Below, one piece after another: positions 61,185 through 64,000 of a stretch of DNA of 64,000 nt. This DNA is from Algibacter sp. L1A34 (GTDB taxonomy: Bacteria > Bacteroidota > Bacteroidia > Flavobacteriales > Flavobacteriaceae). The stretch is taken from NCBI RefSeq assembly GCF_009796805.1, contig NZ_CP047029.1, positions 1,725,501-1,789,500 on the forward strand. The letters are read 5' to 3'. The notes beneath the pieces are model-generated. The model saw nothing but the letters and a program-made list of their open reading frames with translations. It did no database searches and was not told the origin of the DNA. Within the stretch, counting starts at the first letter, position 1, and each line of letters starts with the position of its first letter. The translations under genes and the position numbers were made by a program.

Positions 61185-61192
61185 TATTTTTG
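61185..61192 (+). promoter_or_regulatory. -7 box of ygiQ
   Basis: TATTTTTG, match to TAnnTTTG, only 6 bases before the ATG at 61199; the transcript would be leaderless. No clear -33 element. Confidence 0.45.
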
Positions 61193-61198
61193 CACGAT

Positions 61199-63154
61199 AT
61201 GCAAGAATTAAAACTTTCAGATTGGTTACCTACCACAAATAAAGAGGTGAAAATACGTGGATGGGAAGCGCTAGACGTTATTCTATTTAGTGGCGACGCT
61301 TATGTGGATCATCCCACGTTTGGGCCTGCCGTTATTGGGCGTATGCTTGAGAGTTTTGGTTTGCGTGTTGCCATAGTACCACAGCCTAGTGTTACCGATA
61401 ATCTTCAGGATTTTGTTAAGCTTGGTGCTCCCAAATTATTTTTTGGTGTTACTGGTGGATGTATGGACCCTATGATTAGTAATTATAATGCTAATAAAAA
61501 GCGTCGTGATAAGGATGCATATACGCCTAATGGTGATATTGGATTTCGTCCGGATTACGCAACAACGGTTTATTCTAAAATTTTAAAAGAGAAATGGCCA
61601 GATACGCCTGTTTTAATTGGTGGTATCGAGGCATCACTGCGCCGTGTAACACATTACGATTATTGGAGCGATAAGCTTATGCCTTCTATTTTAGAAACCT
61701 CGAAGGCCGATATGCTAGTTTACGGTATGGGTGAGCAACCCTTGCGTGAAGTGGTGCGTTTGCTAGAAAAAGGGGTGCCTTTTAGAAGTATAAATACGGT
61801 GTTGCAAACGGCTGTACTTTTGAATGAAGATGAAAGTATTCCGAAAAACAGTAATTGGGAAGATGTTGAAGTCGCATCGCATGAGGTATGTTTAAAGGAT
61901 AAGAAAAAATACGCATCTAACTTTAAAGTGATAGAGCAGGAGAGTAATAAATTGGCTGCGCGACGTATTTTTCAGAAAATTGGAGATAAAACTTTAATGA
62001 TTAATCCGCCATATCCAACCATGACGGAAGCTGAAATTGATGCTTCTTTCGATTATCCATATACACGATTACCGCACCCAAAATATAATAAACGTGGGCC
62101 TATTCCGGCCTTCGAAATGATTAAGTTTTCCATTAACATTCACCGTGGGTGTTTTGGTGGTTGTAGCTTTTGTACCATATCTGCACATCAAGGGAAATTT
62201 ATTGCATCACGTAGTAAAGAGTCTATTTTAAAAGAAGTGGATACTGTGGCAAATATGCCCGATTTTAAAGGGTATTTAAGTGATATTGGTGGGCCAAGTG
62301 CTAACATGTACCAAATGAAAGGGAAAATACAATCTATTTGCGATAAGTGTATTTCGCCGAGTTGTATTTCGCCTGTTATTTGTAGCAATTTGGATACATC
62401 GCACAAACCGCTAACGGAATTATATCAGGCGGTTGATAGTCATCCAAAAGTGAAGAAATCGTTTATTGGTTCGGGAATTCGCCATGATATGTTGGTGCCG
62501 GAATTTAATAAAAACGCCGATCCTAAAGAGTTAGACGCTTACACGGAAGAGGTGATGACGAAGCATGTTTCTGGCCGACTTAAAGTAGCACCAGAGCATA
62601 CTAGTGATCCGGTTTTAAAATTGATGCGTAAACCATCGTTTTCGTATTTCCATAAATTTAAGGAACGTTTCGATAAGATAAATATCGCTAAAGGATTAAA
62701 ATTACAATTAATACCATACTTTATATCCAATCATCCAGCTTGTGAAGTGGAAGATATGGCTAATCTTGCTGCCGAAACTAAAGATATGGGGTTTCAGTTA
62801 GAGCAAGTACAAGGTTTTACACCAACACCAATGACGGTGGCTACCGTAATTTATTACTCTGGTTATCATCCATACACACTTAAAAAAGTAAATACGCCTA
62901 TTACTAGAAAGGAAAAGGATGAACAACATCGTTTTTTCTTTTGGTATAAGGATGAAAATAAAGACTGGATTAAAAAGACTTTAAACAAATTAGGGCGTCA
63001 AGATTTACTTAAAGTGTTACTTCCTGAAAAAGAAGAGAAATGGCGTAAAAACACACCGGATGGTGATGCCAAGAATACATTTAATGATGCTGTTCCTTTT
63101 AATAAAAGGAAGAACAAGGTGAGGTATAAAGGGAAGAAGAAGCGGACGCGTTAA
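61199..63154 (+). CDS. ygiQ: YgiQ-family radical SAM protein
   Basis: 651 residues from ATG 61199 (MQELKLSDWLPTTNKEVKI); an upstream TTG in frame is a less likely start. The order is the YgiQ N-terminal B12-binding-like domain, then the radical SAM core with RGCFGGCSFCT (Cys318, Cys322, Cys325, the CxxxCxxC cluster motif) and a C-terminal lysine-rich tail (FNKRKNKVRYKGKKKRTR). Catalysed reaction unknown for the family. The CDKCISPSCISPVIC block at about 380-395 is an additional cysteine cluster typical of YgiQ. Its stop directly abuts the first unit of the repeat array. Confidence 0.95.
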   Translation: MQELKLSDWLPTTNKEVKIRGWEALDVILFSGDAYVDHPTFGPAVIGRMLESFGLRVAIVPQPSVTDNLQDFVKLGAPKLFFGVTGGCMDPMISNYNANKKRRDKDAYTPNGDIGFRPDYATTVYSKILKEKWPDTPVLIGGIEASLRRVTHYDYWSDKLMPSILETSKADMLVYGMGEQPLREVVRLLEKGVPFRSINTVLQTAVLLNEDESIPKNSNWEDVEVASHEVCLKDKKKYASNFKVIEQESNKLAARRIFQKIGDKTLMINPPYPTMTEAEIDASFDYPYTRLPHPKYNKRGPIPAFEMIKFSINIHRGCFGGCSFCTISAHQGKFIASRSKESILKEVDTVANMPDFKGYLSDIGGPSANMYQMKGKIQSICDKCISPSCISPVICSNLDTSHKPLTELYQAVDSHPKVKKSFIGSGIRHDMLVPEFNKNADPKELDAYTEEVMTKHVSGRLKVAPEHTSDPVLKLMRKPSFSYFHKFKERFDKINIAKGLKLQLIPYFISNHPACEVEDMANLAAETKDMGFQLEQVQGFTPTPMTVATVIYYSGYHPYTLKKVNTPITRKEKDEQHRFFFWYKDENKDWIKKTLNKLGRQDLLKVLLPEKEEKWRKNTPDGDAKNTFNDAVPFNKRKNKVRYKGKKKRTR

Positions 63155-63304
63155 TACTACTAATATCTCATCGAGGGGATATTGGCTGGGTCTTAACTGT
63201 TTTATTTTTCGAATGATTCTAGAGCAATTCGAACTTCTAATTTACAAATGGCATCTAAATAAGTCATGAAACAGGTTGTCCCCTCGAGGGGACCGTAGGG
63301 GTGT
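63155..63304. repeat. MITE-like repeat unit A (left of DUF559 gene)
   Basis: About 150 bp, same core as units B and C (GATATTGGCTGGGTCTTA..., ...AATTTACAAATGGCATC) with a degenerate left end and a strong right end: palindrome TCCCCTCGAGGGGA followed by CCGTAGGGGTGT (63277-63304). Unit A is the most diverged copy. Confidence 0.75.
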
Positions 63305-63317
63305 AAACGTTGTATTT

Positions 63318-63683
63318 ATGAGAAATAAAATAATTCCATACCACCCTAAACTAAAACTACTCGCTAGACAATTACGAAAAAACAGTACTTTACCCGAAGT
63401 TTTACTTTGGCAGAAGATAAAGCAACGTGCTTACGGTGTTCAGTTTCATAGGCAAGTTCCTATGCTAAATTATATTACAGATTTTTATTGTCACGAAATA
63501 GGTTTAGCCATTGAAATAGATGGTTCTAGCCACGACCACAGTTTTTTATATGATGCCAAGTGGCAAGGTGAATTGGAGGCTTATGGTGTTACCTTTTTAA
63601 GGTTTTCAAATGAAGAGGTTAAAAAGAATATGTTAAGTGTTTTGTTGATTATTGAAGAAACTGTTAAAGGGTTGATTGATTAA
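63318..63683 (+). CDS. DUF559-family endonuclease-like protein inside the repeat array
   Basis: 121 residues from ATG 63318 (MRNKIIPYHPKLKLLARQLRK); an in-frame extension to 63276 would translate the repeat end and is rejected. The fold is that of Vsr/restriction-endonuclease proteins: STLPEVLLWQKI (Glu27), GVQFHRQVPMLNYITDFYC (Asp55), GLAIEIDGSSHD (Glu66, Asp68) with His72-74 behind. The Asp-x10-Glu-x-Asp spacing fits a nuclease active site. DUF559 proteins are short DNA endonucleases of unknown role. It lies between unit A and unit B, whose terminal repeats face each other across the gene. Confidence 0.85.
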   Translation: MRNKIIPYHPKLKLLARQLRKNSTLPEVLLWQKIKQRAYGVQFHRQVPMLNYITDFYCHEIGLAIEIDGSSHDHSFLYDAKWQGELEAYGVTFLRFSNEEVKKNMLSVLLIIEETVKGLID

Positions 63684-63690
63684 ATTGAAG

Positions 63691-63841
63691 ACACCCCTAT
63701 AATTCCCTCAAGGGTATATTGGCTTAGTCTTATTGTTTTGTTTTTCGAATTTTCACTACTTTATTTTAAACTCTTAATTTACAAATTACATCCAAATATT
63801 TCATGAATAGGGCTGTCCCCTTGAGGGGACCGTAGGGGTGT
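63691..63841. repeat. MITE-like repeat unit B
   Basis: 151 bp. Left end ACACCCCTATAATTCCC (63691-63707), right end TGTCCCCTTGAGGGGACC and GTAGGGGTGT (63814-63841): imperfect terminal inverted repeats of about 25 bp. Inside, GCTTAGTCTTATTG and AATTTACAAATTACATCC match unit C nearly exactly. Seven bases after the DUF559 stop. Confidence 0.8.
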
Positions 63842-63878
63842 TTTTTAGATAAGAGTAAGTTAAAAAAGTCTTTTGTAA

Positions 63879-64000
63879 ACACCCCTATAATCCCCTCGAG
63901 AGCATATTGGCTTAGTCTTATTGTTTTGTTTTTCGAACTCTTACTACTTTATTTTGAACTCCTAATTTACAAATTGCATCTAAATATTTCATGAATAGGT
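63879..64000. repeat. MITE-like repeat unit C (cut by window edge)
   Basis: Begins ACACCCCTATAATCCCCTCG (63879), same core as unit B, and is still running at the window end (at ...TTTCATGAATAGG, the last bases before the expected palindrome). A 37 bp spacer (63842-63878) separates it from unit B. Confidence 0.78.

Follow-up and report, generated by a model that had tools for sequence, protein, structure and literature searches.

The window analysed here is a stretch of 64,000 nucleotides of the 4.64-Mb genome of Algibacter sp. L1A34 (G000:C1:1725501-1789500, with G000 denoting the window genome), and at its right-hand end an array of palindromic repeat units surrounds a gene for a small nuclease of the DUF559 family. 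This array is real and far beyond chance. Relatives of the nuclease are likewise associated with repeat ends, the same end recurs at unrelated sites, the type of the end varies with the clades of the nuclease, and insertion sites are found in full, single-end and empty states. The original prediction had drawn a parallel to repetitive extragenic palindromic (REP) sequences and their REP-associated tyrosine transposases (RAYTs), and a DUF559-linked repeat system of this kind is indeed real and widespread, as found by flank tests; it has empty sites, and its end types follow nuclease clades. We regard it as probable that we are dealing with a mobile element that resembles REPINs (paired, inverted REP sequences), with the small Vsr/EDxHD-type nuclease DUF559 in place of a RAYT as the dedicated enzyme.

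Mechanistically, we infer that end recognition, cutting and copying are carried out by DUF559. The protein would recognize an end of ~28 bp that comprises tag and palindrome (ACACCCCTAAAG-TCCCCTCAAGGGGA-CA in the end type T1, see below), either as duplex DNA or as a hairpin made by two inverted ends, and it would nick or cut at this end. Repair of the break might then copy the unit to sites nearby, either together with the nuclease gene or without it, thereby generating tandem arrays, and at times also to distant sites. The gene-free units, which have a length of 151 bp in the window, would be non-autonomous, and insertions in host genes could survive when they are in frame, as those of Rickettsia palindromic elements do.

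The array and the nuclease of the window

The relevant features of the window are the following (strand in brackets):

63155..63304 (+): unit A, left end decayed and right end intact (direct and inverted repeats; the right end is an exact motif match)
63279..63304 (-): left facing end, palindrome TCCCCTCGAGGGGA and then tag TAGGGGTGT, which adjoins the gene (motif match and tag position; the T1 loci have the same type of end)
63318..63683 (+): gene of the DUF559 nuclease, predicted PD-(D/E)XK type, 121 codons (PF04480, E=6.4e-28; ATG and TAA checked)
63691..63716 (+): right facing end, tag ACACCCCTA, which adjoins the gene, and then a palindrome with one arm decayed (repeat and motif search)
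63691..63841 (+): unit B, 151 bp, tag-palindrome-interior-palindrome-tag (repeat search and unit comparison)
63879..64000 (+): unit C, truncated where the window stops, with its true end at G000:C1:1789529 (repeat and motif search); five further units follow beyond the window
61190..63154 (+): radical SAM protein, which we take to be YgiQ-like (Pfam PF08497, E=1.5e-120); it marks the insertion site

The repeat search of the window groups units A, B and C into one three-copy family with inverted ends. Units of ~150 bp with inverted ends around a 121-codon DUF559 gene had been predicted and were borne out by repeat, Pfam and motif searches, with unit size and extent of the array now corrected: in the whole genome, the array continues to G000:C1:1790475, ~1 kb beyond the window, and seven units of exactly 151 bp each, of which five lie entirely beyond the window, are located 3' of the gene, separated by spacers of 37-38 bp. 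Each unit consists of tag, palindrome, an interior of ~100 bp, palindrome and tag, and the seven post-gene units share a mean pairwise identity of 90.6%. When folded as single-stranded DNA, two units of the array other than unit B form one unit-wide hairpin (z -3.9 and -4.8), and none of 200 shuffles folds as well in either case. With up to 3 mismatches allowed, the end motif has 15 matches in the 4.64-Mb genome, every one at this locus, and the backwards-read motif used as control has none in the whole genome at the same stringency. Only one DUF559 match was detected in this genome, and it lies beside the array. Rfam gave 16 matches, all of them to microRNA-type hairpin models and far under the gathering scores, and the units thus correspond to no described RNA family. 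A known defence system (best PADLOC match E=0.01) and a phage family of known role (best PHROGs match E=5.5e-5, function unknown) were ruled out.

The window protein scores 97.2 bits against PF04480, for which the curated cut-off is 20.6, and the candidate catalytic positions E27, D55, E66, D68, H72 and D79 are invariant in alignments of 10 and 25 rows. Its structure is predicted with a pLDDT (predicted local distance difference test) of 88, and the nearest solved folds are 3hrl and the catalytic domain of I-Bth0305I (3r3p), which are also the sole profile-search matches below E=0.05; for 3r3p, the sequence profile gives E=1.2e-4 and the fold E=5.3e-4. The protein is therefore predicted to be a PD-(D/E)XK nuclease, with the homing endonuclease I-Bth0305I as nearest relative. 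Judged from the spacing given in the relevant part of PMC12907096, E27, D55, D68 and H72 likely correspond to a Vsr-like active site. The passages of PMC9403480 that deal with a DUF559 gene, in a section on inteins, place this gene in the EDxHD homing family and do not mention palindromic repeats. Some DUF559 copies contain stops or frameshifts (L065, L075, L139, L147, L031), which is to be expected for mobile genes that are gained and lost. On a Synechocystis plasmid (L285), DUF559 adjoins a gene that is annotated as PglX methylase of a bacteriophage exclusion (BREX) system and that may be split around DUF559, as far as the annotation tells.

Repeat ends at DUF559 loci

To examine the surroundings of DUF559 relatives, 102 loci were chosen by protein similarity alone, and their flanks were inspected afterwards. 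A close set of 79 loci derives from the best 80 of 569 relatives, a distant set of 23 loci represents mostly more distant relatives, and a few loci among the 102 were fetched twice (e.g. L026 and L050). In a motif-free test, which evaluates the best-scoring inverted repeat formed between flanks of 300 bp and uses other genes of the same loci as controls, a score of at least 32 was reached at 62 of 99 scorable loci (76 of the close and 23 of the distant set, three being dropped for short or masked flanks), as compared to 10 of 377 control genes. Within the close set, 56 of 77 scorable loci beat all 100 dinucleotide shuffles, and only 9 of 250 control genes did so.

Two types of ends recur, T1 (ACACCCCTNNNNTCCCCTNNAGGGGA) and T2 (ACATCCCCC, a short spacer, and CCCCCTTYRAAGGGGG). 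One of them is found within 350 bp of DUF559 at 71 of the 79 close-set loci (51 T1, 20 T2), as compared to 3 hits in a total of 373 control windows, each 700 bp long and taken from these loci (Fisher p ~1e-69). As both consensuses were read from the same loci, the argument rests on the control windows together with the motif-free test. The 79 loci contain 155 T1 sites (up to 2 mismatches), 140 of which lie within 500 bp of DUF559, and conservation fades within a few bases on either side of the motif. Since these sites were picked by the motif, conservation inside it is partly given by construction, and the conservation of the T1 tag (ACACCCCT plus four variable bases) therefore rests on the motif-free flank alignments, which cover the tag as well as the palindrome. 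Many of the distant-set loci without T1 or T2 have other C/G-rich inverted ends as judged by eye, and these are counted in the motif-free test. By eye, a palindromic insert of ~45 bp with a AAATGAAAATATATTTTCATT-like core was also recognized near DUF559 at L059, L060, L061, L066, L067 and L122; it splits repeat ends between palindrome and tag and thus constitutes a repeat within a repeat.

The end type tracks the clades of the nuclease, and this relation is partly confounded by host kinship. On a nuclease tree with 79 rows (51 T1, 20 T2, 8 other), which was calculated from 120 columns, has many weak forks and comes with no label-shuffle test, the 71 T1/T2 rows require 5 changes of end type, or 13 if “other” is taken as a third state. 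Flavobacterium contributes a T2 clade of three nucleases (support 99) and a separate T1 clade, also of three (support 89), and this contrast inside one genus speaks for the nuclease. In Pontibacter, which belongs to another order, 10 of 12 rows have T1 ends.

The association also holds at the level of genomes. In a family survey of 249 genomes, the T1 pattern was present in 34 and the backwards control pattern in 3, and 91 genomes had a DUF559 match. The pattern is present in all 13 genomes whose DUF559 match is close (E<1e-48, a threshold chosen once the data had been seen), compared to 21 of the other 236 (p ~6e-13); extending this group by the two genomes that follow gives 13 of 15 (p ~5e-11). 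If any DUF559 match is considered, the pattern occurs in 28 of 91 genomes, and in 6 of 158 without a match (p ~5e-9). A phylum-wide search detected DUF559 in 170 of 296 genomes, and 17 of the 26 scorable loci among the best 30 beat all shuffles (controls 1 of 7). Plasmids were covered by 10 of 34 records, from Deinococcus, cyanobacteria and Proteobacteria, and 6 of these 10 exceeded every shuffle, while 7 exceeded at least 96 (controls 1 of 28). Brackets of inverted ends recur in Deinococcus, cyanobacteria and alphaproteobacteria, and Pseudanabaena has full repeat pairs on either side of DUF559. The loci of Synechocystis, Photobacterium and Sinorhizobium do not pass the shuffle test, though palindromes near DUF559 are visible by eye. 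That many relatives in other bacteria are bracketed in this way, even inside working host genes, suggests that this kind of mobile element is widespread.

Insertion states and position of the gene

A total of 46 of the 149 DUF559 matches of the family survey lie in open frames of at least 340 codons (hand count of stop-to-stop frames). Pfam identified DUF559 in frame with six proteins, namely methionine synthase (MetH), leucyl-tRNA synthetase (LeuRS), RecG, HemD, a PALP enzyme, and a type ISP restriction enzyme, and in three more LeuRS proteins. At MetH site 1, the element is present in G241, G202, G230, G074, G173 and G019, and in G042, MetH contains an insertion whose repeats are of another type. 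None of the 29 other MetH loci read (30 loci were returned, including that of G241; 197 of the 249 genomes had a MetH match) contains DUF559 at site 1, and one of them (L206) has a single repeat end there that matches the right end of the full elements. MetH site 2 is occupied by a further full copy in G241, has just one end in G202, and is without either in G230. A single methionine synthase gene of G241 (L164) thus contains two in-frame DUF559 copies at different sites, both with near-perfect inverted ends. The two copies are 86% identical at the amino acid level and 77 and 78% identical to the site-1 copy of G202, using only alignments to correctly cut segments (the G202, G230 and G173 segments start short); being closest to each other, they point to a copying event within that gene. 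According to reading and Pfam, the MetH inserts consist of DUF559 and repeat ends only and are read through in frame, no dedicated search for introns or inteins having been made, and the in-frame insertions are apparently unspliced.

DUF559 also appears in frame with the start of an apparent uroporphyrinogen-III synthase in five genomes, at L170, L171, L172, L173 and L181, with Pfam applied to L171 only. Palindromes at these HemD fusions were dropped as unproved, as a flank score of at least 28 was reached in 1 of 5 cases.

At the window's own site, the genes that flank the element are 2133 bp apart, as opposed to 184 bp in G076, where a methyltransferase gene follows 184 bp beyond the radical SAM gene in place of the array. 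This genome of another genus provides the clean empty-site comparison for the window locus. Within the genus, this radical SAM gene is followed by DUF559 and units in G003 too, and G001, G002 and G004 have no element there, but different neighbours. The seven units of the window genome are 90.6% and the three distinct units of G003 95.6% identical to each other, and the identity between the two genomes is 85.3%; as units are more alike within than between genomes, this is a sign of turnover within the array. The empty-site polymorphism that the original prediction implied thus exists, at the MetH sites as well as at the window site when compared to G076.

The orientation of ends relative to the gene differs between the T1 group and MetH. 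T1 loci contain 29 outward-facing pairs without a gene, 19 of which are 140 to 154 bp long. Neighbouring T1 pairs that span the gene face inward in 32 of 39 cases, are direct in 7 and never outward, and the gene of the T1 group therefore sits between units; the window gene is accordingly free-standing between repeat units. In the MetH insertions, the gene lies inside outward-facing ends, and the same was seen by eye in the LeuRS insertion L037. That the ends face each other across the gene had been correctly predicted. Units B and C, however, are not deletion derivatives of gene plus ends: in the T1 group, the gene has units on either side whose tags face it, and internal deletion is ruled out by this orientation. 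An arrangement with the gene within outward-facing ends does occur in the in-frame MetH insertions.

Possible movers of the repeats and comparison with known systems

What alternatives exist for DUF559 as the enzyme that moves the repeats? The main rival explanation, which agrees that nuclease and ends interact and differs on the cause, assumes that other machinery spreads the repeats, and that DUF559 is a free-standing homing endonuclease that targets the junction of facing ends and for this reason sits between units. We consider this unlikely, albeit deserving attention. The nearest characterized relative is indeed a homing endonuclease, the gene in T1 loci lies across facing ends (32 of 39) or direct pairs (7 of 39) and never inside an outward-facing unit, and ten facing pairs without gene exist. 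Moreover, Y1 transposases are found in 15 of 23 pattern-positive genomes tested (out of 34). The position of the MetH gene inside outward-facing ends and the tracking of nuclease clades by the end type argue against such a passenger role, and so do the 8 of 23 genomes, that of the window included, in which no Y1 match was found, with the search covering no other transposase families. In the window genome, there is no match to PF01797, and a Y1/RAYT-type transposase is thus ruled out as the mover there.

Apart from the Y1 transposases, several observations weigh against a repeat-moving DUF559 nuclease. Neither T1 nor T2 was found at 8 of the 79 close-set loci and at 20 of the 23 distant-set loci, and 15 of 77 close-set loci fall short of 96 out of 100 shuffles. 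The LeuRS insertions L041, L253 and L256 have no bracket; L041 (in G006, flank score 22) has lost the EIDG-H signature, but L253 and L256 have strong DUF559 scores, which contradicts a simple rule. The possibility that DUF559 genes usually lack the repeats, which would have spoken against the original prediction, fails for close relatives and may hold for the family as a whole, where only 3 of 23 distant-set loci have T1 or T2 and some LeuRS insertions have no bracket. Repeats in genomes that lack DUF559, which would likewise have spoken against the prediction, occur to some extent: 28 of the 34 pattern-positive genomes have a DUF559 match, and six lack a match to the window DUF559, their best PF04480 matches being weak and partial (23.0 to 26.5 bits). 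Two of the six have higher numbers of T1-like end matches, 15 in G183, where five Y1 transposase matches were found, and 11 in G228 (68% complete), where there was none. The repeats in the six genomes could be orphaned or moved by something else. Furthermore, host order also needs 5 changes on the nuclease tree, and since the tree follows host order too, co-variation is only partly separated from host kinship. Units of the window genome are restricted to the local array, whereas dispersed copies are a trait of REPIN/RAYT systems; in G104 and G096, the end matches listed are spread over contigs. As the T1 group has the gene outside the outward-facing unit and MetH has it inside, the moving segment is not fixed. 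Finally, no target-site duplication was established at the empty sites compared, which are too diverged to place one.

Two further explanations fare much worse. DUF559 could be a host repair enzyme similar to Vsr, one that nicks DNA at mismatches associated with a cytosine methylase, with the palindromes as unrelated neighbours. There is a fold likeness to Vsr that is weaker than the matches described above (1vsr, rank 12, E=0.12), a Caulobacter DUF559 protein, VsrA, is linked to a solitary methylase in the part of PMC12907096 that concerns it, and a C5 methylase gene lies ~9 kb off in the window genome. The link to this methylase was not borne out, as a match (E<=1e-5) was found at only 5 of 89 relative loci, in a test that is weak because each locus covers no more than 5 or 3 kb per side and the Caulobacter pair is itself unlinked. 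As host repair leaves both the ends (71 of 79 versus 3 in 373) and the in-frame insertions unexplained, we regard it as very improbable. Least credible of all is a selection of the hairpins as transcription terminators or mRNA stabilizers around an expressed nuclease gene, which could account for the strong folding of two units but not for motif-free alignments that include the tag besides the palindrome, elements inside open reading frames, seven tandem units without a gene, and end types that track nuclease clades.

If the REPIN-like element with DUF559 as its dedicated enzyme is extended to all these findings, DUF559 elements may form a separate class of mobile DNA in multiple phyla, whose nuclease would recognize palindromic tag-ends and copy them by break repair, even in frame into essential genes without splicing, and DUF559 could be the missing enzyme behind many RAYT-less families of palindromic repeats. 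We propose this only tentatively. DUF559 is a large family with a mostly unknown role, and the analysis names a specific pair of enzyme and repeat, finds that the two end types correspond to clades of the nuclease, and supplies naturally occurring sites in the full, single-end and empty state, which makes the mover of palindromic repeats directly testable. If true, a break-and-repair route would be added to the known ways by which bacterial repeats spread, and in-frame domain insertion in enzymes such as methionine synthase and leucyl-tRNA synthetase would be explained.

In titles and abstract openings, a coverage that leaves most subscription papers outside, no paper was found that ties DUF559 to palindromic repeats or names a Vsr-type nuclease as their partner. 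Known are palindromic repeats with an enzyme (REP and RAYT), palindromic repeats without one (the CGTC REPs, according to the part of PMC3733652 that treats them), and in-frame insertions (Rickettsia). Miniature inverted-repeat transposable elements (MITEs) of DDE transposons are similar as short non-coding units with terminal inverted repeats, but no DDE transposase lies beside the window array (the search was not genome-wide), and no target duplication was established. With the EDxHD/Vsr-like homing endonuclease I-Bth0305I, the DUF559 elements share catalytic fold, sequence relation and insertion into conserved host genes; unlike there, the inserts that were read contain no recognizable intron or intein, with no search dedicated to them, the insertions are in frame and apparently unspliced, and the ends are palindromic repeats that also occur alone. 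In the portion of PMC3733652 (Di Nocera 2013) relevant here, palindromic repeats are described in Bacteroidetes and other phyla, some of them within genes, with the CGTC repeats as lacking a dedicated transposase and their mover left open, and in-frame palindromic insertions are already known from Rickettsia elements, as described in a section of PMC10969869. CGTC-tagged REPs and Rickettsia palindromic elements are alike in being palindromic and partly inside genes (PMC3733652, same portion), but neither T1 nor T2 has a CGTC tag, and the elements described here either contain DUF559 or lie next to it. REPIN/RAYT systems, outlined in part in PMC3733652, have in common with the DUF559 elements the paired inverted palindromes, a short unpaired tag, non-autonomous units, clusters, and an enzyme gene flanked by repeats. 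Their enzyme is an HUH Y1 transposase instead of a predicted PD-(D/E)XK nuclease, their tag is GTAG instead of ACACCCC- or ACATCCCCC-like, and the unit length of ~150 bp is unlike theirs, but the two inverted palindromes that form a hairpin unit, a trait of REPIN/RAYT systems, are present here as well.
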